Source: Myxococcus guangdongensis (GTDB lineage Bacteria; Myxococcota; Myxococcia; Myxococcales; Myxococcaceae). From it: a DNA stretch of 64,000 bases. Both the position numbers and the translations under genes were made by a program. Below are positions 15,963-26,239 of the stretch, one piece after another. Within the stretch, counting starts at the first letter, position 1. Each line of letters opens with the position of its first letter. The notes under the pieces are model-generated. The model was given only the letters and a program-made list of their open reading frames with translations, ran no database searches and was not told where the DNA came from. The stretch lies in NCBI RefSeq assembly GCF_024198255.1, contig NZ_JAJVKW010000001.1, positions 1,116,001 through 1,180,000 of the forward strand. The letters are read 5' to 3'.

Positions 15963-17687
15963 TCAGGCCGCCTCGTCCTCGGAGAGCAGGTCCGCGAACG
16001 GCGAGGCGTCCTCCCCCAGTGCCTTGTAGAGCGCCTCCACCTTTTCCAGCTCGCGCTTGAGCGCCTTGTGGTGGTTGCGGTTCTTCACCAGGCTCTCGCG
16101 CCCCAACAGCTTGAAGCCGTCGTCGCGCCCCACCTGCCGGATGGCCACGCCCAGCACCAGTCCACGGAACGCGTCCGCGAGGTCCAGGTCCAGGGGCGCG
16201 TTGCGACGGCGCGCCTCCGCGACGAAGGCCTGGGCCGCCGCCTTCAGCGCGTCCGGCAAGGGCTTGCCACCCGGCGCCTGCTCGTAGTCGAGCGCGCGCG
16301 CCACGTGCTTCTCGTGGAGCACCAGCTCACCACCGGACACGGCGTGCTCCACCATGGCCAGCGTGTACGCACGGCGGACGATGTTGTCGAGCTGACGCAG
16401 GTTGCCCGGCCACGCGCTGCCGACGAGCAGCCGCTCCGCGTCCGGCGTCACGCGCGCGTTGCCCTCGGGGGAGCGCTCGCGGTGGCGGCGCTTCACCATG
16501 TACTGGGCCCAGAGCGGGATTTCGTCCTGACGCTCCTGCAGCGCGGGCATGCGCACCGGCAACACGTTGACGCGGTAGTAGAGGTCCTCGCGGAAGCGGC
16601 CCGCGCGCACCTCGGCGTGCAGGTCCGCGTTGGTGCCGATGATGAAGCGCACGTCCGCCTGACGCTCACCGGTGCCCTCGCCCAGCGGGCGGTAGCTGCG
16701 CGACTCCAACAGGTGCAGCAGGCCCGCCTGCGCCTTGAGCGACAGCTTGTCGATTTCGTCGATGAACAGCGTGCCGCCGTCCGCGCGCGCCACGCTGCCG
16801 GGCGCGTCACGCACCGCGCCCGTGAAGGCGCCCTTCTTCCAGCCGAAGAGCTCCGCCATCTGGAGGTCCTCGGGCACCGTCACCAGGTCCAACGTCTCGA
16901 AGGGCTTGCCCCGACGGTTGGAGCGCTCGTGGCACCAGCGCGCCAGCCGCGACTTGCCCGCGCCCGTCGCGCCGCTGATGAGGATGGTCTCGTCCTGCAG
17001 CGCGAAGACGCGCAGGATGGGCAGCAGCTCCGCCATGGAGCGGCCCACCACCGGCAGGTACTCGTCCACCTCCGGAGTCGCCACCGGACGCTGCGGCAGG
17101 CCGGCCAGGTACGGCGCCGCCACGTCCGCCAACAGCTGGAGCCGCTCGCCGGACTCGCGCCAGACGAACTCCTGCCCCATGGCGGCCAGGCAGTCCGCCT
17201 CCAGGGAGATCATCCCCTCGATGCTGCCGCCCGGCGTGCGCAGGGGCAGCACGCACACGTGCGTGGCGTGACGGCCCAGGAAGCGCTGACGGCTCTCGTT
17301 GCTGTGGAACCCCGCGAGCCCCGGGTCACCCGTCACCGGGGCGTCCGGCGCGTGCGGCTGCACCGTGCCCACGTTGACGTCGATGGACACCGCGCAGCGG
17401 TGCTCCACCACCGCCCTCCACGCCGTGGCCGACGTGAAGAAGGGGGTCCCCACACTCGCATCCGTAATCTCAGTGGCGCCCACATCCAGCGCGGCCAGGC
17501 GGCGGTAGGCTTCCCCCGGGCGCAAGTGGACGATTCCGCGAAGCACGCGGGCGCGGGCTGCGTACCGACTGGACGCAACGGCGTCCTGCGCCACGGCCAA
17601 CATGTGCTTGAGGGTGGTGGTCGCCGCGGTCTCGAAATCCTTCGCCCCCCGCAGCGCGCTCATGAGCTGCGGCATCTCCTCGTGCAT
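15963..17687 (-). CDS. GAF-domain sigma-54-dependent activator
   Basis: 574 residues. ATG 17687 is chosen because GGAGG lies 7 nt upstream (17695-17699); the upstream ATG 17711 lacks this. Residues 30-190 look like a GAF sensor domain. The AAA+ domain has Walker A GATGAGKS (about residue 236), the sigma-54 contact loop GAFTGA (about 285), Walker B GTLFIDEID (about 307) and the WPGNLRQLDN segment. The C-terminus (residues 470-574) contains RESLVKNRNHHKALKRELEK, a likely DNA-binding helix region but not a standard Fis domain. No receiver domain, so the signal is probably a ligand of GAF. Target promoters are unknown; the divergent kinase is a candidate. Confidence 0.9.
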   Translation of the reverse strand: MHEEMPQLMSALRGAKDFETAATTTLKHMLAVAQDAVASSRYAARARVLRGIVHLRPGEAYRRLAALDVGATEITDASVGTPFFTSATAWRAVVEHRCAVSIDVNVGTVQPHAPDAPVTGDPGLAGFHSNESRQRFLGRHATHVCVLPLRTPGGSIEGMISLEADCLAAMGQEFVWRESGERLQLLADVAAPYLAGLPQRPVATPEVDEYLPVVGRSMAELLPILRVFALQDETILISGATGAGKSRLARWCHERSNRRGKPFETLDLVTVPEDLQMAELFGWKKGAFTGAVRDAPGSVARADGGTLFIDEIDKLSLKAQAGLLHLLESRSYRPLGEGTGERQADVRFIIGTNADLHAEVRAGRFREDLYYRVNVLPVRMPALQERQDEIPLWAQYMVKRRHRERSPEGNARVTPDAERLLVGSAWPGNLRQLDNIVRRAYTLAMVEHAVSGGELVLHEKHVARALDYEQAPGGKPLPDALKAAAQAFVAEARRRNAPLDLDLADAFRGLVLGVAIRQVGRDDGFKLLGRESLVKNRNHHKALKRELEKVEALYKALGEDASPFADLLSEDEAA

Positions 17688-18017
17688 CCACTCGCCTCCG
17701 TCCGGTGCCATCCGAGAGTACCCGCCAAGGGCCGCATCGGAGGGGAGGCAGTGTAGCGGAGATGAAGAACGCGGAAGGAGCGGCCCCTCCTTCCGCGTTC
17801 CCGAACCTCGCTGACGGCTGGGCACCCGGTTTCCCGTGGCGCCGCGCCGAAACCCCATGCGCGATTCATGCCAAACACGCATTTTACGTCTTTTCAGGGG
17901 TTTGACTCGAAATGCGACCCTTGGAGGCCCCAAACCGCGTCCAACTGGTACGCAGCCGCGTCCCAACGCAACGCAGATGGGACGTGCCAGGGGGGCTCGC
18001 TATGCTCGATGCCCTTT
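17688..18017. other. divergent intergenic region, 330 bp
   Basis: Shared upstream region of the sigma-54 activator (leftward) and the large kinase (rightward). It contains the strong hairpin at 17767-17800 and a relatively AT-rich patch (17880-17905, attttacgtcttttcagg). No convincing gene is present. I found no sigma-54 promoter with correct GG-N10-GC spacing. Confidence 0.7.
17767..17800. promoter_or_regulatory. 14-bp perfect inverted repeat (hairpin)
   Basis: GAACGCGGAAGGAG and its exact reverse complement are separated by 6 nt (CGGCCC). It lies 80 bp upstream of the sigma-54 activator start. No T-run follows. It could be an operator, an attenuator in the activator leader, or a terminator shielding the divergent promoters. 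Confidence 0.55.
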
Positions 18018-21000
18018 ATGACGGAGTCTTCTCGGATTCCCACGCTGCCTGGGGTGGGGGCGACCATCGGCCCATACACACTGCTCGAGGTGCTCGGGCA
18101 GGGGGGCATGGGCGTCGTCTACCGGGGGCAGCATCCGGAGACGGGCGAGGGGGTGGCGGTGAAGACGGTGCGCGCGGCCTCGGAGGTTCCGTTGGCCAGC
18201 ATCCGTCGGGAAATCCATGCGTTGCGCCGGCTCCGGCACCCGGGCGTGGTGCGAATCGTCGCCGAGGGCGTGACGCGGGGGCTGCCCTGGTACGCCATGG
18301 AGTTGCTCCGGGGGCAGACGCTGCGGCTGGCCACACCCGCGCCGGGGACGGGGCCGCTGGACGGCGAGCGGCTGAGGGGGACGCTCAATCTGACCCGGCG
18401 GCTGTGCTCGGCGCTGGCGTTCCTGCATGGCAACGGGCTGGTGCACCGGGATCTCAAGCCGGAGAACGTCTTCCTGCGTCCTGATGGGACGCCGGTGCTG
18501 GTGGACTTCGGCATCGCCGCGCGCTTCGGCGGCTCACGGGGGCGGGAGACGCTGGACGTGAGCGGCGTGGTGGTGGGCAGCGACACGTACATGGCGCCGG
18601 AGCAGCTCCGGGGCGACTACGTGGACGCGCGGGCGGACCTCTACGCCCTGGGCTGCATCCTCTACGAGCAGCTCACGGGACGGCCGCCCTTCGTCCCCGG
18701 CCGCGAGGGGCCGCTGCCCCATCAGCACCTGCACCTGACGCCCGTGCCGCCGGGCCTGCGCGTGGAGGGGGTGCCCACGGCGCTGGACGCCTTGGTGCTG
18801 CGGCTGCTCGCCAAGCGCCCCCAGGAGCGGCCGGGATACGCGGAGGACGTGTCGTCCGCGCTCGAGGCCCTGGGCGCGGCGCACGGCGAGGAGGGCGCCG
18901 CCGCGGTGCCCCGGACGCCCGCCTATCTGTATCGGCCTGACCTGTCGGGACGCGGCGGTGAGCTGGGCCGGCTGATGGCGGCGCTCGACGCGGCCGCCCG
19001 TGGACACGGCGGCCGGGTCTTCCTCGGCGGAGAGAGCGGCGCGGGCAAGACGCGGCTGGCGCTGGAGCTGGCGGCGGAGGCCGGCTGGCGACGCATGGCG
19101 GTGGTGACGGGCGAGTGCGTGGCCATGGGCGAGGGCGGCACGGACCTGCACGCCGCGCCCCTGCAGCCCCTGCGTCCGCTGATGCACGCGGTGGCGGACC
19201 GCTGCAACGAGCGCGGCGCGGCCGAGACGGCGCGGCTGCTCGGACCTCGGGGACGCGTGCTCGCGGCGTACGAGCCGTCCTTGTCGCAGCTGCCCGGTCA
19301 GCGCGAGCTGCCCGAGCCCCCTCCCCTGCCCGCGCAGGAGGCGCGCCTGCGCGTGTTGTCGGCGCTGCGCGACACGCTGTGCGCGCTGGCGGAGGCGCAG
19401 CCGCTGCTGTTGGTGCTGGATGACTTGCAGTGGGCGGACGAGCTGACGCTGAGCTTCCTGTTGGAACTCGACGCGCGGCACCTCGCGAAGCGGCCGGTGT
19501 TGCTCGTGGGCACCTATCGGATGGACCAGATGGGGCAGGCCCTGCGCGAGGTGGTGGGCGCGTCCGACGCGGTGCGCGTCGAAGTCGGCCGGCTGGACGC
19601 GAGGAGCGCGGGGCAGATGGTGCGCGACATGCTCGCGCTGCGCGAGGTGCCCGCGCCCTTCGTCGACGCGCTGGTGCAGGAGACGAGCGGCAATCCCTTC
19701 TTCATCGCGGAGTACCTGCGCGCCGCCATCGACGCGGGCCTGCTCTTCCGCGCGCCCTCCGGCGAGTGGCTCTTCGAGGCCCAGGGCAGCGCCGGCGGCC
19801 GTCCCCTGCCCCTGCCCGGCAGCATCGCCGAGCTCATCGAGCGGCGCCTGTCGGACCTGGGCGAGCACGGGCGCGCGCTGGCGGAGGTCGCCGCGGTGCT
19901 GGGGCGCGAGCTGGATGAGGAGCTGCTCTTGTCCGCCACCGCGCTGCCGGAGGGCACGAGCGCGGAGGCCGTGGAGGAGCTGCGGCGTCGGCAGGTGCTC
20001 GAGGAGTCCGGCGGGGGCCGGCTGCGCTTCGTGCACGACAAGCTGCGCGAGGTGGCCTACGCGCGAATCCCCGACACGCGACGACGCGCCCTGCACCATC
20101 GCTGCGCGGAGCACCTGGAGGCACATGGCGAGACTTCACTCTCGGGCCTGACGCCGCTGGCCGCGGGCCTTGCCCACCACTGGTCGCGCGCGGGAGTGCC
20201 CGAGCGGGCCAGCGGCTGGTTCGCGCGGGCGGCGGACGCGGCGCGCTCGGCGTATGCCAATGGCGACGCCATCTCCTTCTACGAGTCCGCGCTGCGCGAG
20301 GCCGCGGCGTCCTCGGGGAACGCGCATGCGTCCGGCCTGGACGCGCCGGAGGTGGCACTGGATGTCGTCTGGGAATCGCTGGGCGAGGTGCTCGCGCTCA
20401 CCGGACGCCAGCAGGACGCGCGTCAGGCCTTCCTCCAATCCCTGGCACGGATTGAGCAAACCCAGCGTGTCCGTCGCGCCAACGTGCTGCGGAAGGTGGG
20501 CAAGTCCTTGCAGACGCACCATCAGAACGAGGAAGCGCTGCGGGTGTATGCCCAGGCACAGGCCGAGCTGGGACCCATGCCCGACAGCGTCTCCTCCGCG
20601 CCCGGACAGTTGGAGGCCGCGTGGTGGCACGAGTGGGTGCAGCTCCAGGGTGAGCGCATCACCGTGCACTACTGGCTGGCCCAGCTCGACGAGATGCGGG
20701 CCCTGGTGGAGGGAGTGCGTCCGGTGATGCGGGCCCACGGCACGCCGCTGCAGCGCGCGCGGTTCTTCAACTCGCTGGTGCAGATGCAACTGCGCAGCGA
20801 ACGCTATCGAGCATCGACAGAGACCGTGGCCCACGCCCGGGCCTACGCGGAAGCGGCGCTGGAGTCCGAGGGGGAAGCGGAGCACGCGGGGGCCCGGTGC
20901 GTGGTCGCCATGGTGTTGCTCTTCCATGGCGCACTGGATGAGGCACAGAGCTGGATGGAGGAGTCCCTGCGCGGAGCCGAGCGGCAGGGAGACGTGACGT

Positions 21001-21476
21001 TGCAGACGCGCTGCCTCACCTACCTCACCGTCATCCTCCGCTTGAGGGAGCGGGTGGCGGAGGCGAGCGAGGCGACGGAGCGCACGCTGGAGCTGGCGAC
21101 GCGCTCCGGCATGTCGGACTACCTGGGCGCGGCGCATGCCACCCGGGCCTGGGTGGCCTCGCGTGCCCAGGACTTCGTCTCGGCGAGACAGGCGGCCACC
21201 GAGTCGCTGCGACTGTGGCAGGCGCTCTCGCTCGTGTACCCCTTCCAATGGCTCGCGCGCTGGCCCCTGCTCGTCGTGGAGCTCTCGGAAGGAGCACTGC
21301 CCCAGGCGCTGGAGCAGGCCCGGGCGATGCTCGAGGGCCACCAGCAGCGACAGCCAGACGTCCTCACGCAGGCGTTGATGCAAGCGTTGGCGCAGGCGGA
21401 CGCGGACCGGATGGACGAAGCGCGGACCACACTCATCCAGGCCTGTGAGTCAGCCCGGCGGCTCTGCTATCTGTAA
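18018..21476 (+). CDS. Ser/Thr protein kinase fused to ATPase and helical repeats
   Basis: 1152 residues from ATG 18018 (ATG 18009 also possible). Residues 20-290 form a Hanks-type kinase with GQGGMG loop, VAVKTV lysine, HRDLKPEN catalytic loop and DFG. From about residue 305 a second module starts with GRGGELGRL and has Walker A GGESGAGKT (about 338) and Walker B LLLVLDDLQWAD (about 467), as in AAA_16/STAND-type signalling ATPases. Residues 680-1152 are TPR-like helices. No membrane segment, so it is cytoplasmic. Such kinase-ATPase-TPR proteins are frequent in myxobacteria and act as large signalling scaffolds. It ends 72 bp before the YcaO-TfuA unit on the same strand. Confidence 0.92.
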   Translation: MTESSRIPTLPGVGATIGPYTLLEVLGQGGMGVVYRGQHPETGEGVAVKTVRAASEVPLASIRREIHALRRLRHPGVVRIVAEGVTRGLPWYAMELLRGQTLRLATPAPGTGPLDGERLRGTLNLTRRLCSALAFLHGNGLVHRDLKPENVFLRPDGTPVLVDFGIAARFGGSRGRETLDVSGVVVGSDTYMAPEQLRGDYVDARADLYALGCILYEQLTGRPPFVPGREGPLPHQHLHLTPVPPGLRVEGVPTALDALVLRLLAKRPQERPGYAEDVSSALEALGAAHGEEGAAAVPRTPAYLYRPDLSGRGGELGRLMAALDAAARGHGGRVFLGGESGAGKTRLALELAAEAGWRRMAVVTGECVAMGEGGTDLHAAPLQPLRPLMHAVADRCNERGAAETARLLGPRGRVLAAYEPSLSQLPGQRELPEPPPLPAQEARLRVLSALRDTLCALAEAQPLLLVLDDLQWADELTLSFLLELDARHLAKRPVLLVGTYRMDQMGQALREVVGASDAVRVEVGRLDARSAGQMVRDMLALREVPAPFVDALVQETSGNPFFIAEYLRAAIDAGLLFRAPSGEWLFEAQGSAGGRPLPLPGSIAELIERRLSDLGEHGRALAEVAAVLGRELDEELLLSATALPEGTSAEAVEELRRRQVLEESGGGRLRFVHDKLREVAYARIPDTRRRALHHRCAEHLEAHGETSLSGLTPLAAGLAHHWSRAGVPERASGWFARAADAARSAYANGDAISFYESALREAAASSGNAHASGLDAPEVALDVVWESLGEVLALTGRQQDARQAFLQSLARIEQTQRVRRANVLRKVGKSLQTHHQNEEALRVYAQAQAELGPMPDSVSSAPGQLEAAWWHEWVQLQGERITVHYWLAQLDEMRALVEGVRPVMRAHGTPLQRARFFNSLVQMQLRSERYRASTETVAHARAYAEAALESEGEAEHAGARCVVAMVLLFHGALDEAQSWMEESLRGAERQGDVTLQTRCLTYLTVILRLRERVAEASEATERTLELATRSGMSDYLGAAHATRAWVASRAQDFVSARQAATESLRLWQALSLVYPFQWLARWPLLVVELSEGALPQALEQARAMLEGHQQRQPDVLTQALMQALAQADADRMDEARTTLIQACESARRLCYL

Positions 21477-21548: not shown

Positions 21549-22193
21549 ATGGCAGGCCCGTATGTGTATTTCTTCTTCAAGCCCGAGCGCGTCACGCTGC
21601 TGGAGGGCTTCTCCACCCAGGTCTCCGTGTGGGGCGTCCCGTCGCGAAGCCCCAACGTGCCCGAGAACGTGACGAGCAAGATGAACTTCCGCATCGAGGG
21701 CAACGACGGCTCCATCGGAATCTCCCAGCCGTCGCCGGACGTCCTCCAGATTTCCGGACTGGATGACAACATCAAGCCCGTCACCGTCGTCGCCGCGCCC
21801 AGGAACAACGACACCGAGTTCCCCCGCATCGAGGCGCGCGTGGAGTGCTCGGTGGACCAGTCGGACTTGCTCATCTACGCGCCGGACGGGAACATCTACT
21901 GGCTCAAGCCCGAGGAGTGGCAGAAGGCCCAGAAGCTGTCCCCCACGGACAAGAGCCTGACGGGAGACCTGGACACGCTGTTGAAGAACGAGACGGTGGT
22001 CGCCAACCTCCCGGTGCCCGCCAACGTCGCGGCGCCCACCAACACGGCGGCCGAGAACCTGTCCGACGCCGCCGAGCCCATCACCTGCTTCCTGCTCAAC
22101 CTCAACAGCATCCTCCTGAGCTACAGCCCGAGCCCGAACCTGAAGGCCGGCGAGCAGGGCCCCGTCTACCGCAATCCCGACCCCCAGCCTTGA
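21549..22193 (+). CDS. unknown 214-residue protein coupled to YcaO-TfuA
   Basis: 214 residues from ATG 21549, chosen because CGAGG lies 5 nt upstream; an earlier in-frame start at 21492 lacks support. No signal peptide. Residues 1-90 are strand-rich and aromatic (MAGPYVYFFFKPERVTLLEG, then QVSVWGV), resembling an Ig-like fold in pattern only. Residues 120-145 include IYWLKPEEWQKAQK, and the C-terminal 60 residues are Ala/Asn/Ser/Pro-rich with ITCFLLNLNSILLSYSPSPN. Only two Cys. I do not recognise a family. The stop overlaps the YcaO start as TGATG, which ties the two products together. It may be the substrate, a scaffold or a partner of the YcaO/TfuA enzymes. Confidence 0.85.
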   Translation: MAGPYVYFFFKPERVTLLEGFSTQVSVWGVPSRSPNVPENVTSKMNFRIEGNDGSIGISQPSPDVLQISGLDDNIKPVTVVAAPRNNDTEFPRIEARVECSVDQSDLLIYAPDGNIYWLKPEEWQKAQKLSPTDKSLTGDLDTLLKNETVVANLPVPANVAAPTNTAAENLSDAAEPITCFLLNLNSILLSYSPSPNLKAGEQGPVYRNPDPQP

Positions 22194-23449
22194 TGCGCCC
22201 CTTCTCCTTCGACACCGGTAGCGCGTCCCCCGGGACGACCAAGCAGTTCCGCCAGGGGACCCACCGGGTGATGACGCCCGAGCAGACGCTGGAGCGTGTG
22301 CAACGGCTCATGCCCGTCATGGGAATCACCCGCGTCGCCAACGTCACGGGGTTGGACACGATTGGCCTCCCGGTGGTGATGGTGACGCGGCCCAACGCGC
22401 GCTCGCTGGCGGTGTCGCAGGGAAAGGGCACGAGCCTCGCGGCGGCGAAGGCGTCCGGGTTGATGGAGTCGGTGGAGGCGTACCACGCCGAGCACGTCAC
22501 GCTGCCCCTGAAGCTGGCCACGTACAATGAGCTGCGCTTCCGCTCGCCCGTGGTCGACGTGGACAGGCTGCCTCGACTGTCGGTGAGCCTGTTCCATCCC
22601 AACTGGCGCACGCTCTGGGTGGAGGGCGTGGACCTGTTGGGCTCGGGGCCGCTGTGGCTGCCCTTCGACCTGGTGCACACGGACTTCACGCTGCCCCTGC
22701 CCACGGGGAGCGGCGCGTTCCTCATGAGCAGCAATGGGCTGGCCTCCGGCAACCACGTGCTCGAGGCGATGCTGCATGGGTTGTGTGAAGGGGTGGAGCG
22801 CGACGCGACGGCGCTCTGGCATGCGGGCGGCGAGAAGGCCCAGGCCGCCACGCGACTGAAGCTGGAGTCGGTGGACGACGCCGAGTGCCGGCAGGTGCTG
22901 GACCTCTACGAGCGCGCGGGCGTGGCCGTGGGCGTCTGGGAGACGACGAGCGACATCGGTGTGCCCGCGTTCAGCTGCTACATCATCGACCGGGAGCCCG
23001 AGCCGCTGCGCCCTGTCGCGGTGGCGGGCGGCATGGGCTGTCACCCCTCGCGAGCCGTCGCCCTGCTGCGAGCCCTGACGGAGGCCGCGCAGAGTCGGCT
23101 CACGCGCATCAGCGGCGCGAGAGATGACCTGCACCGCAAGGCGTACGAGGCCGCGCGCGAAGGCGTGACGGCGGAGCGACTGCGCAAGCGGCTGGCCGAG
23201 GAGCCCGCGGTGCGGGAGTTCCAACAAGCGCCGCATCACGACGCGGCCACGTTCGAGGAGGACCTCGCGTGGGTGCTCGCGAGGGTGCGCTCGGTGGGCG
23301 TGAGCCAGGTGGTGGTGGTGGACCTGACGAAGCCGGAGCTGGGGTTGCCCGTCGTGCGGGTGGTGGTGCCGGGGTTGGAGACGACGCACGAAGCGCCCGG
23401 GTATCAACCAGGTCCGCGAGCCCAGCGGATGCGCGGAGGCGCGCGATGA
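22193..23449 (+). CDS. YcaO-domain ATP-dependent cyclodehydratase/thioamidase
   Basis: 418 residues. The YcaO ATP-binding signatures are visible: ASGLMESVEAYHAE (about residues 85-98), EAMLHGLCEGVERDA (about 190-204) and ALTEAAQSRLTRISGARDD (about 293-311). The protein ends GYQPGPRA plus a short tail. YcaO enzymes activate backbone amides with ATP to form azolines or, with TfuA, thioamides. The protein is a stand-alone YcaO without fused cyclodehydratase E1-like domain. It overlaps TfuA by 4 bp (ATGA). With TfuA next door, thioamide formation is more likely than azoline formation. Confidence 0.93.
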   Translation: MRPFSFDTGSASPGTTKQFRQGTHRVMTPEQTLERVQRLMPVMGITRVANVTGLDTIGLPVVMVTRPNARSLAVSQGKGTSLAAAKASGLMESVEAYHAEHVTLPLKLATYNELRFRSPVVDVDRLPRLSVSLFHPNWRTLWVEGVDLLGSGPLWLPFDLVHTDFTLPLPTGSGAFLMSSNGLASGNHVLEAMLHGLCEGVERDATALWHAGGEKAQAATRLKLESVDDAECRQVLDLYERAGVAVGVWETTSDIGVPAFSCYIIDREPEPLRPVAVAGGMGCHPSRAVALLRALTEAAQSRLTRISGARDDLHRKAYEAAREGVTAERLRKRLAEEPAVREFQQAPHHDAATFEEDLAWVLARVRSVGVSQVVVVDLTKPELGLPVVRVVVPGLETTHEAPGYQPGPRAQRMRGGAR

Positions 23450-24783
23450 AGGTCTTCATCTTCACCGGCCCCACGCTGCGAGCCGAAGAGGCGAAGCGGG
23501 AGCTCGACGCGGTGTACCTGCCTCCCGCGCAGCAGGGCGATGTCTACCGCGCGGCCTGCGAGAAGCCGGTGGCCCTGGGTATCATCGACGGGTTCTTCGA
23601 GCACGTGCCCGCGGTCTGGCACAAGGAGATCCTCTGGGCGATGTCGGAGGGCATCCATGTCTTCGGGGCCTCGAGCATGGGGGCGCTGAGGGCCGCGGAG
23701 CTGGCCACCTTCGGCATGGAGGGCGTGGGCTGCGTGTTCGAGGACTTCCGCCAGGGCGTGCTGGAGGACGATGACGAGGTCGCGGTGGCGCACGCGAGCG
23801 CCGAGCACGACTGGCGTCCCCTGTCCGAGGCGATGGTCAACGTGCGCGCCACGCTCGCGGCGGCACGAGCGGCGGGAGTGGTGAGCGAGCCTGTTCGCGC
23901 CTCGCTCGAGCAGCGCGCCAAGGCGCTCTTCTACGTGGAGCGTGCGTGGCCGAAGCTGCTGTCGGGATTTCCTCGCGCGGAGGTGGAGGCGCTCGAGGCC
24001 TGGCTGCCGCGGGGACGCGTGGATGTGAAGCGCGCGGACGCGGTGGCGATGCTGCGCACGATTCGCTCGCGTGTGGAGGCAGGGCTCTCGCCCAAGGAGA
24101 CCCGCTTCCCCTTCCAGCACACGGATGCATGGGAAGAGGCGCGAAGGCGCGCGGCGCGACAGCCGCTTCGACAGACGGCACGCACCTCGGATGGCGTGGG
24201 AACCGAAGCGCTCCTCGATGAGCTCCGCCTGCGCGGAGGGCTGAAGGAGGCGCGGCGGGCGAGCATGGCGCGAGCACTCGCCGTGGAGGAGGCGCGGCGG
24301 GTGGGGCGCGTTCCGGACGCATGGGAGCTCCACGCGACGAAGGAGGCGCTGAGCCACGAGCGGCACCTCACGCCGGAGTCCTTCGAGCTGTGGAAGGCGG
24401 AGCAGCACGTGGACGACGTCGCCCGGCTGCTGCGGGACGAGTCCCATGTGCGCTGGGTGGAGGCGCTCATGGAGCCGGAGGTCTTGCGGCACCTCGCCGA
24501 CCACCTGCGGCTGACGGGTGAGTACGCCGTCTTGTTGGAGCGTGCGCGCGACAAGGAGCAGGTGCTCGAGACGGCGGGGCTCTCGCGGCCCAGGCTGGAG
24601 GACGCGGGCATCACCGAGGGCGCGCTGTGGGCCTGGTACTTCGAGGAGAACCAGGGGCGCATGGTGCCCGTGCAGATGGAGCAGGCTGCGCGCGACGAGG
24701 GCTTCGCCGACGTGGCCTCCATGCGCAGGGCCGCGCTGCGTGAGCTTTGCTATGTGCTCACGAAGGCGGGCGCCGCGGCCTGA
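23446..24783 (+). CDS. TfuA-like protein
   Basis: 445 residues from ATG 23446, with GGAGG 6 nt upstream. The TfuA core is clear: GIIDGFFEHVPAVWHKEIL (about residues 45-63) followed by GIHVFGASSMGALRAAEL (about 70-86). After about residue 215 there is a long, Arg/Glu/Ala-rich helical extension that is not part of the minimal TfuA core. TfuA proteins partner YcaO enzymes in making thioamides (archaeal methyl-coenzyme M reductase and thioamide RiPPs) and are thought to help deliver sulfide. The operon lacks a separate sulfur donor, peptidase or transporter. Confidence 0.93.
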   Translation: MKVFIFTGPTLRAEEAKRELDAVYLPPAQQGDVYRAACEKPVALGIIDGFFEHVPAVWHKEILWAMSEGIHVFGASSMGALRAAELATFGMEGVGCVFEDFRQGVLEDDDEVAVAHASAEHDWRPLSEAMVNVRATLAAARAAGVVSEPVRASLEQRAKALFYVERAWPKLLSGFPRAEVEALEAWLPRGRVDVKRADAVAMLRTIRSRVEAGLSPKETRFPFQHTDAWEEARRRAARQPLRQTARTSDGVGTEALLDELRLRGGLKEARRASMARALAVEEARRVGRVPDAWELHATKEALSHERHLTPESFELWKAEQHVDDVARLLRDESHVRWVEALMEPEVLRHLADHLRLTGEYAVLLERARDKEQVLETAGLSRPRLEDAGITEGALWAWYFEENQGRMVPVQMEQAARDEGFADVASMRRAALRELCYVLTKAGAAA

Positions 24784-24899: not shown

Positions 24900-25370
24900 A
24901 TGAACACGACGCCGGAGAATGAATCTCCACGGTCGTCCGGTCTGCTCTTGAAGTGGCTGCCGCTCATCCTGGCCGGTGTCGTCGGCCTTGTCGTCGGCCT
25001 CTTCTGGCGCAGCTCCATCGAGCTCTTCGGAATCCACATCGAGCTCCCAGCGGAGCCTCCGCGCATGTTCCACGTGTACGGCGTCATGCTGGTGCTGTGG
25101 CTCGTCTACGTGGGCCTCCAGAAGGTGCGCGCGCTGTTGAGCGGCGACGGTGAGGCGCAGATTGTCGCGACCTACATCGTGTCGGGCGAGGGCTCATCGA
25201 AGGACATGAGCATCGAGGTCCTCGAGCACCTGAAGGACAAGCACGGCTTCGACGCAGTGGACTGCCCCGACTGCGACGCCGAGGGCTGCAAGCGCTGCGA
25301 CGACGGAGGGCTCCTCCTCGACTACAAGAAGGAGCCCTGCGGAGCGGACTGCCCGCTCCGTCCGCTGTAG
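24900..25370 (+). CDS. two-helix membrane protein with four-Cys motif
   Basis: 156 residues from ATG 24900 (GGGGGA just upstream). Two transmembrane helices at about residues 17-36 and 55-75, then a C-terminal cytoplasmic-looking domain with CPDCDAEGCKRC (C-x2-C-x4-C-x2-C), followed by CGADC. The Cys set could bind zinc or an iron-sulfur cluster. It follows tfuA after 116 bp on the same strand, so it may or may not belong to that unit. No family recognised. Confidence 0.8.
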   Translation: MNTTPENESPRSSGLLLKWLPLILAGVVGLVVGLFWRSSIELFGIHIELPAEPPRMFHVYGVMLVLWLVYVGLQKVRALLSGDGEAQIVATYIVSGEGSSKDMSIEVLEHLKDKHGFDAVDCPDCDAEGCKRCDDGGLLLDYKKEPCGADCPLRPL

Positions 25371-25390: not shown

Positions 25391-26239
25391 TTACTTCTTC
25401 TTCGAGGCGGTGGCGCGCTTGCGACTCGAGGGCGCCTTCACTTCCACCGTCGACGAGGGCGCCGGCTGCAGGACGAAGACCCGGTCCAACCGTCGGCTGC
25501 CACGCTCGACGGGCGCGCTGAGGTCGTAGTCGAAGTCATACGCCTCCACCACGCGCAGGCCCGCGGTGCGGAACAACCGGTTCGCCTGCGCCGCGTCGTA
25601 CGTCCGGAAGAACCAGGTCGTCTCGATGAGCCAGTCCTTCCCTGGCCCCGTGACGCGCAGCCGGTTGCGCATGGGGGAGCGGCGCGCGCGCCGGTCCGGC
25701 AGGCCCTCGTTCGTGTTGCAGACGACCTTGTCCTTGCCCACCGTCCCCAGCCAGCGCTCGTGCTCGGCCGAGGTCCGCGCGTAGTCGGTGAGGTGGAAGC
25801 CCAGCACATAGAGCCCCTGGGGCTTGAGCAGCCGCCGCGTCCCCTTCAGGTGCGCCAGCGCCGCCGCCTCGCTGTCCAGGTAGCGGAAGGTGGAGACCAG
25901 GTTGTGCGCGACGTCCACCTTGCCCTCCAGCGAGGGCTCGAAGAACTCCTCCATGCGCGACACGGAGAGCTTCACCTGACGGCGACGCGCGGGCGTCAGC
26001 CGCTTGCGCGCATGTGCGAGCATCGCCTCGGAGATGTCGTAACCGGCGACCTTCAGTCCCCGGCTCGTGGCCTCGGCCACCAGGCGACCGGCGCCACACG
26101 CGGGCTCCAACCACTGCTTGCCCCCCGTGCCGTGCCGTTCGCTCAGCGCCTGGAGGAAGTCCACCTCGCGCACGGTGTCGGTGCCGAAGATGGCTTCGTA
26201 ATACTCGGGGTGCTCATACCAGTCGGTGCGTTTTTCCAT
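25391..26239 (-). CDS. class I SAM-dependent methyltransferase
   Basis: 282 residues. Motif I is WLEPACGAGRLV, followed by VAGYDISEAML and AHNLVSTFRYL, all typical of class I Rossmann methyltransferases acting on small molecules. The C-terminus is a Lys/Arg/Ser tail (SSRKRATASKKK) that looks disordered and could bind nucleic acid or membranes. Substrate unknown. Convergent with the gene at 24900. Confidence 0.85.
   Translation of the reverse strand: MEKRTDWYEHPEYYEAIFGTDTVREVDFLQALSERHGTGGKQWLEPACGAGRLVAEATSRGLKVAGYDISEAMLAHARKRLTPARRRQVKLSVSRMEEFFEPSLEGKVDVAHNLVSTFRYLDSEAAALAHLKGTRRLLKPQGLYVLGFHLTDYARTSAEHERWLGTVGKDKVVCNTNEGLPDRRARRSPMRNRLRVTGPGKDWLIETTWFFRTYDAAQANRLFRTAGLRVVEAYDFDYDLSAPVERGSRRLDRVFVLQPAPSSTVEVKAPSSRKRATASKKK

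Follow-up and report, generated by a model that had tools for sequence, protein, structure and literature searches.

We propose that X214, a 214-residue protein of the soil bacterium Myxococcus guangdongensis, is the substrate of the YcaO-TfuA pair, rare sulfur-inserting enzymes encoded next to it, that a conserved core near its C-terminus is likely to be thioamidated, and that this takes place within a signalling cassette of four genes. We put the probability of this joint reading, which is drawn from sequence comparison, at roughly two in three. X214 itself is most likely a long form within a family that resembles precursors, and a short form of the proposed substrate, found next to these enzymes in distantly related bacteria, suggests a kind of modified signalling protein that has not been described before. 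The cassette lies in a stretch of 64,000 nucleotides, here called the window (contig NZ_JAJVKW010000001.1 of RefSeq assembly GCF_024198255.1, positions 1,116,001 to 1,180,000; the assembly comprises 53 contigs and 11.2 Mb in total). In window coordinates its features are:

18009..21476, + strand: kinase-AAA_16-TPR protein of Ser/Thr type, 1155 residues, start codon uncertain (Pfam, NCBIfam, motifs)
21549..22193, + strand: X214, 214 residues, proposed YcaO-TfuA substrate (orthologue alignment, profile comparison)
21549..21857, + strand: X214 residues 1-103, fast-evolving immunoglobulin (Ig)-like beta-sandwich (AlphaFold2, Foldseek)
21861..21905, + strand: X214 residues 105-119, beta-hairpin SDLLIYAPDGNIYWL, proposed recognition element (model strands, invariant residues)
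22083..22112, + strand: X214 residues 179-188, TCFLLNLNSI, the core and proposed modification site (17/17 orthologues)
22193..23449, + strand: YcaO, 418 residues (Pfam, NCBIfam, structure match, relatives' alignment)
23446..24783, + strand: TfuA, 445 residues, with a C-terminal extension past residue ~211 (Pfam, NCBIfam, structure match)

X214 consists of an Ig-like domain and a C-terminal module of about 90 residues, in which the hairpin is followed by a linker with a helix and then by the core. No Pfam family matched at E 0.1 or better (DUF6865 at 0.18), NCBIfam and PADLOC gave no match, and comparison with PDB sequences gave nothing useful. In the AlphaFold2 model residues 1-100 have block-mean pLDDT (predicted local distance difference test) values of 72-92 and the hairpin strands span residues 105-110 and 116-119; the top structural matches found with Foldseek are the Ig-like domains of LigA (E 1.1e-5, TM-score 0.37 by query length). 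A search of 145 genomes of the order (E <= 0.001) found X214 orthologues in 17, 15 from the same genus and two from other genera. All 17 accompany TfuA, 16 on one contig and that of genome G102 divided by contig ends, and no X214 was found without the pair. Some TfuA occurs in 107 of the 145 genomes, often only of a more distant type (e.g. G000:C5). In the alignment of the 17 orthologues the first ~100 residues diverge, and the patterns D-L--APDG--Y, NE---AN-P and TCFLLNLNSI--SY-P are kept. Within the hairpin D106, L108, APDG 111-114 and Y117 are invariant, and TCFLLNLNSI is unchanged in 17/17. The hairpin lies apart from the conserved core, an arrangement to be expected of an enzyme that holds its substrate at one element and modifies it at the other.

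The module recurs as a free-standing peptide. We searched a profile of the YcaO clade (A2) against genome contigs and kept the best 80 of 266 loci, which come from Myxococcota, Azospirillum and other alphaproteobacteria, Gammaproteobacteria, Chloroflexota, Acidobacteriota, Actinomycetota and Balneolota. TfuA is present in 78 of the 80. In part of these loci, from alpha- and gammaproteobacteria and other Myxococcota, a peptide of 74-113 residues with the hairpin lies directly upstream of YcaO, with ends such as GAACYLIDLNSI (L194), SVCYVVNLGSL (L141), AMCYLINLAGL (L188) and ASCYLVNLRSI (L174). A model built from 13 short peptides beside related YcaOs, with the X214 orthologues excluded (A5), aligned with the X214 orthologue profile (A3) over residues 108-197 with a probability of 97.65 and E 2.6e-12 (hhalign), and a wider X-module profile comparison gave 98.95 and E 1e-17. 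Searches with A5 recover X214 itself at E 5.6e-6 and 15 of its 17 orthologues; across 195 genomes of the phylum A5 matches 23, and all 31 matches at E <= 0.01 are X-type loci. Hence X214 has the hairpin, helix and CYLxNL core of the short peptides in one homologous module. For the first A5 row a hairpin and a helix are predicted, with two further strands, the last in the core (mean pLDDT 65.7, moderate).

These results bear on an earlier sequence-only reading of this DNA. Its description of the 214-residue protein as unrecognised holds for the family databases; the protein does have an Ig-like domain and a module homologous to short peptides. The suggestion of a system without a classical precursor does not stand, since short precursor-like peptides beside related YcaOs are homologues of the C-terminal module and X214 is thus itself precursor-like. 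Of its two options for the target, this protein or one elsewhere, the first agrees with the 17 orthologues, and we likewise predict X214 to be the target from their TfuA neighbours and invariant core. The checks that it suggested, for constant company of YcaO-TfuA and for conserved residues in the C-terminal part, came out in the same sense for these orthologues, in which Cys and Ser of that part are conserved. No separate precursor gene emerged either: in six further X214 loci (L071, L072, L085-L088) no extra gene is called between kinase and TfuA, within a scope of open reading frames of at least 40 codons.

We then asked how specific the core is to the neighbourhood of YcaO. Of the 80 A2 loci, five with less than 700 bases upstream were excluded; in the other 75 the pattern C-x-[LVI]-[LVIM]-[ND]-[LM] was sought in open reading frames no more than 1.2 kb upstream of YcaO. 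It was found in 24/75 loci compared with 0/132 control windows. Among 1385 distinct called proteins the core lies in the last 60 residues of 60/553 within three genes of YcaO (a count that includes some truncated copies from overlapping loci) compared with 4/586 others, and these four all belong to the family. In 28 divergent cores, picked by the core pattern with similar ones collapsed, Tyr or Phe follows the Cys in 20 and Ile, Leu, Val or Phe occupies position +8 in 27, both positions lying outside the pattern.

What the sequences show is the homology of the module, the recurrence of the core, the joint presence or absence of the genes and their linkage to a signalling ATPase. We infer that X undergoes modification, that a residue of the core thereby comes to bear a thioamide, and that the kinase has a role. 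The hairpin SDLLIYAPDGNIYWL would be the probable recognition element for the enzyme, and YcaO would swap a backbone carbonyl oxygen for sulfur at the core, the sulfur arriving via TfuA. The modified X214 would then probably stay in the cell as a protein rather than become a diversified secreted peptide, because the core is conserved and the cassette has no exporter or peptidase gene. A less likely course is that X214 is the leader-bearing precursor of a ribosomally synthesised and post-translationally modified peptide (RiPP), whose modified C-terminus would be released by a peptidase from another part of the genome and would leave the cell as a small thioamidated peptide. The family members of 74-113 residues are indeed precursor-like, and at L177 (5515-5820), L183 (5558-5824), L211 (5399-5878) and L162 (5052-5339) the precursor position is taken by tandem-repeat peptides, typical of RiPP cores, with repeats of the types DAGRMAIEA, DAGRWAITP and SDIIV. 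These are candidate multi-core thioamidated peptides and show, at the level of sequence, that the YcaO clade of the X214 loci also has RiPP-like candidate substrates. X214, however, does not have the short length and variable core of a classical precursor, its short homologues occurring in other lineages; its core is its most conserved part, the opposite of diversifying RiPPs, and a folded Ig-like domain is predicted in it. Several relatives carry two tandem modules within one protein. Core conservation, tandem copies and Ig fusion make a modified protein more likely than a diversified natural product. X214 and six short relatives matched no NCBIfam or Pfam model above its cut-off, NHLP/Nif11 leader models included, and the matches below cut-off are to unrelated families (e.g. 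DUF2459 at E 8.7e-4 for the L194 peptide).

The link to signalling comes from the fourth gene. X214, YcaO and TfuA are co-directional, with a TGATG junction and then an ATGA overlap, and the kinase gene ends 72 bases upstream of X214. The sequence-only reading had the three open reading frames, their coordinates and their overlaps exactly, and overlooked this kinase (18009-21476, + strand). Its product matches Pkinase (E 3.2e-41), AAA_16 (E 3e-23) and TPR_12 (E 7.5e-7, slightly below cut-off) in Pfam, and its kinase and P-loop motifs are intact. Its top NCBIfam model, TIGR03903 (TOMM_kin_cyc), scores E 8.8e-75 and 252.4 bits, below the cut-off of 705.75. A defence role was considered; PADLOC matched the kinase alone of the four proteins, mainly through the generic kinase domain.

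The four genes come and go together between two conserved flanks, both present in 27/27 genomes of the genus:

15963..17687, - strand: sigma-54 activator, left flank (Pfam; 27/27 genus genomes)
25391..26239, - strand: methyltransferase, right flank (Pfam; 27/27 genus genomes)

All four genes are found in 15 of the 27 genomes, 14 with 7.1-7.7 kb between the flanks and G102 with the set at two contig ends. Eleven have an empty site of 288-407 bp, as read from the sequence in four and from coordinates in the rest, and in G096 the 2.15 kb between the flanks hold only decayed kinase pieces (tblastn). In this presence or absence en bloc the kinase, X214, YcaO and TfuA behave as one unit. It also contradicts the idea that these genes stand together by chance in a myxobacterial genome rich in genes, for which no evidence emerged, as does the adjacency of X modules to YcaO-TfuA described below, and we regard that explanation as negligible. 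Outside the genus, a large gene with a BLAST match (1e-8) to the query for kinase, AAA-TPR or cyclase is present in 46/56 A2 loci with full flanks, and in 55/80 A2 loci overall, counts that take L200 by its kinase domain alone and include many near relatives within Azospirillum; in the source genome the AAA-TPR part has six matches, one of them the gene itself, an approximate contrast as the threshold there is the stricter E 1e-20. The partner is of the kinase type in L194 (Azospirillum agricola) and cyclase-like in L151 (Azospirillum), where a Crp-type regulator follows TfuA. Linkage to this signalling ATPase suggests a signalling role. Modified X214 would cooperate with the kinase-AAA-TPR protein encoded upstream, be it as its sensor ligand, its scaffold or its target; in relatives a cyclase-type AAA-TPR protein takes the kinase's place.

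Between TfuA and the right flank lies a 156-residue protein (24900-25370, + strand) that has hydrophobic stretches near its N-terminus and a tail rich in Cys; it is uncalled in the sister loci L085-L088 and has no significant family match in Pfam or PADLOC. Promoter and terminator scans gave matches not above those in shuffled sequence.

The identities of the two enzymes, named correctly in the sequence-only reading, are clear. YcaO matches PF02624 over the full profile length (E 3.3e-84), its closest solved structure is MJ1094 (6pe3, E 7.2e-39), and its top NCBIfam model is TIGR03266, the McrA-thioamidation YcaO, at 234.1 bits, below the cut-off of 365. It is conserved among 21 aligned relatives. 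The nearest YcaO relatives with a name are from Myxococcus and Pyxidicoccus, at 79-85% identity. TfuA matches PF07812 at residues 48-166 (E 4e-47) and scores 207.2 bits against NF033432, below its cut-off of 235.2. As its alignment with structure 6xp8 covers residues 3-211, residues ~212-445 form an extension outside the known domain, the long extension already noticed. With their conserved domains and adjacent genes the two constitute a YcaO-TfuA system. In a quick YcaO tree, midpoint-rooted for drawing only, the X214-type YcaOs group together and CxLLNL-type loci are scattered over several branches. The source genome has a second, divergent YcaO-TfuA pair (G000:C5:110536-112463; L089, 6438-8701), near which six-frame translation gave no X module; its neighbours are what we take to be a peroxiredoxin-like gene upstream and a 666-residue kinase-like gene downstream. 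A third YcaO lies at G000:C13:85404-86456 (L090), with no TfuA called in the 16 kb examined.

A different chemistry, in which YcaO makes an azoline at the conserved Cys instead of a thioamide, appears highly improbable. The Cys is near-invariant (C82, in at least 90% of rows of the X-module model A1), as an azoline would have it. The clade nevertheless keeps TfuA, the two A2 contigs without it ending at YcaO, and the closest NCBIfam model is that of McrA thioamidation. Pfam scans of the cassette turned up neither a dehydrogenase nor a docking protein, and they gave no peptidase or exporter in the cassette or the next flanking proteins; the absence of dehydrogenase, peptidase and exporter had been noted from the sequence alone. 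Moreover, the Cys is missing from some cores and shifted in another, which we take to favour a backbone change over Cys cyclisation.

In more distant YcaO-TfuA loci the neighbouring protein differs and the C-terminal module is the same. The module is single in L060, L071 and L083, double in one protein in L059, L061, L074, L079 and L082, and in two adjacent genes in L076. Searching the 195 phylum genomes with A1 (E <= 0.01) matched 28, all in the source genome's family, with 43 matches that make 35 loci. YcaO-TfuA lies beside X on the same contig in 32 of these and G102 is split between contigs; the remaining two, both kinase-X pairs, have no YcaO-TfuA nearby. Two further hits were rejected as X loci: G047:C1:8723965 (E 0.018; E 0.003 on six-frame translation) and G086 (E 0.041), whose called genes show neither YcaO nor module, were excluded from the 35 as probable chance. 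In L079, L121 and L122 X lies past the kinase from YcaO-TfuA. When the core pattern was sought near YcaO in 14 loci with no called X it was present in three (L051, L055, L056); L052, L053 and L079 have an X gene past the kinase, and eight remain without. Upstream of X in tandem-module loci there is a family of proteins of ~243-266 residues (L059 6805-7545, L061 8886-9617, L074 4322-5122, L082 4397-5191), and the L074 member has no meaningful Pfam match.

Several results weigh against the proposal that X214 is the substrate. The kinase-X pairs L127 (632-4673) and L128 (4322-8392) have no YcaO-TfuA nearby, with other copies elsewhere in their genomes; modification in trans, or loss, is possible, and the L127 neighbourhood is incomplete, its contig starting 0.6 kb from X. 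Conversely, six-frame translation revealed no X module in the close YcaO-TfuA loci L058/L125, L073, L077, L078 and L057 (at a contig end). L073 (5484-5759), L077 (6260-6505) and L078 (5893-6144) have peptides of 81-91 residues beside YcaO-TfuA with a similar hairpin start (VVGEDGRLYRV type) and a Pro-rich spacer but another C-terminus. Azospirillum peptides of 65 residues (RGADGRLYAV...) align weakly with the X module, in the hairpin only (probability 45, E 2.2e-4), and A5 misses G043 and G074, the two X214 orthologues from other genera. Compared with the core, the hairpin pattern has less specificity, occurring in 61/75 loci but also in 35/132 control windows, and the C-terminal arm of the X214 model after the hairpin is of low confidence. 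Lastly, L145 (SIMNLSSI) and the second copy in L122 lack the Cys, and the second copy in L079 has it one position off, so no single core residue is fixed. It is because of the loci that have YcaO-TfuA without X, or X without YcaO-TfuA, that we keep our probability at the value given above.

Apart from these, no kinase was found in the stretch examined of L058/L125, and the distant pairs L062-L067, L069, L070, L084, L089 and L126 showed no X module on six frames. L084 (1655-7216) has a 48-residue peptide ending in SICSYCTP that adjoins a divergent YcaO-TfuA and a 1061-residue protein, which we take to resemble a lantibiotic dehydratase.

The kinase-X pairs without YcaO-TfuA, together with the kinase being part of the en bloc unit, would suit an X214 that is an unmodified adaptor, its hairpin and C-terminal motif binding YcaO-TfuA and presenting another target such as the kinase. 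We consider this improbable, since the module occurs alone as a peptide of 74-113 residues in other lineages and repeat-core peptides occupy the same position in related loci. A substrate role for X214 remains our preferred reading.

NHLP-Burk TOMM clusters have a cyclodehydratase set in place of the YcaO-TfuA pair. The present cassette differs from them in having that pair, in scoring below the TIGR03903 cut-off and in an X214 that matches no leader model. A large Ser/Thr kinase beside such clusters was noted in 2010 (PMC2887384), and a large kinase or kinase/cyclase protein adjoining a YcaO-type cluster is what the two share (PMC2887384). Another study lists a 'TOMM kinase cyclase' among the genes that are down-regulated when an Archangium-type myxobacterium meets methyljasmonate, the passages covered making no mention of YcaO (PMC6997564).

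The methanogen pair, in which YcaO and TfuA thioamidate McrA (PMC5589413), is alike in its enzymes, TIGR03266/MJ1094 and NF033432/6xp8 being the nearest to ours, and in a probable substrate that is a conserved protein and not a variable peptide. Unlike there, neither model reaches its equivalog cut-off, the gene for the candidate substrate belongs to the cassette itself, a kinase is present, and X214 has no MCR-family match in Pfam. According to PMC13063428, E. coli YcaO thioamidates ribosomal protein uL16 without TfuA, uL16 is the second protein after McrA with YcaO-catalysed thioamidation, and ThiS-type carriers with TfuA are the usual sulfur route. A bacterial YcaO acting on a folded, conserved protein is the parallel with X214, whereas E. 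coli is reported to have no TfuA and no short peptide gene near YcaO and here TfuA and a candidate substrate are adjacent (PMC13063428). Thioamidated RiPP clusters share the adjacent tfuA-ycaO and a substrate-like gene upstream (PMC6511847, PMC8120280); X214 is in contrast long, Ig-fused and conserved in its core, and its four-gene cassette is without tailoring, peptidase or transport genes. Short CxLLNL members may already be among the 797 precursor families reported in PMC8120280. The enzymes are already known. The literature covered, namely titles, abstracts and passages, with subscription papers, most preprints and supplements outside its scope, gave no account of the X family, its core or the whole cassette.

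X214 is a candidate third YcaO-thioamidated protein, gene-encoded, after McrA and uL16. A single small cassette brings together the candidate substrate, both enzymes and a signalling partner, and genomes that otherwise match either have it or lack it by nature, so direct tests would be easy; the residue modified, the choice of substrate without a known recognition domain and the use of a backbone thioamide in signalling could all be addressed. On a broader and more tentative view, to which we would give somewhat less than even odds, there may be a widespread signalling system in which a non-exported thioamidated protein or peptide, made in situ by YcaO-TfuA, either feeds into a kinase- or cyclase-AAA-TPR regulator or is its output, the myxobacterial Ig-fused and tandem versions including X214. 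The hairpin and CxLLNL core would in addition give a sequence handle by which precursors could be annotated at part of the many TfuA loci that several phyla contain.

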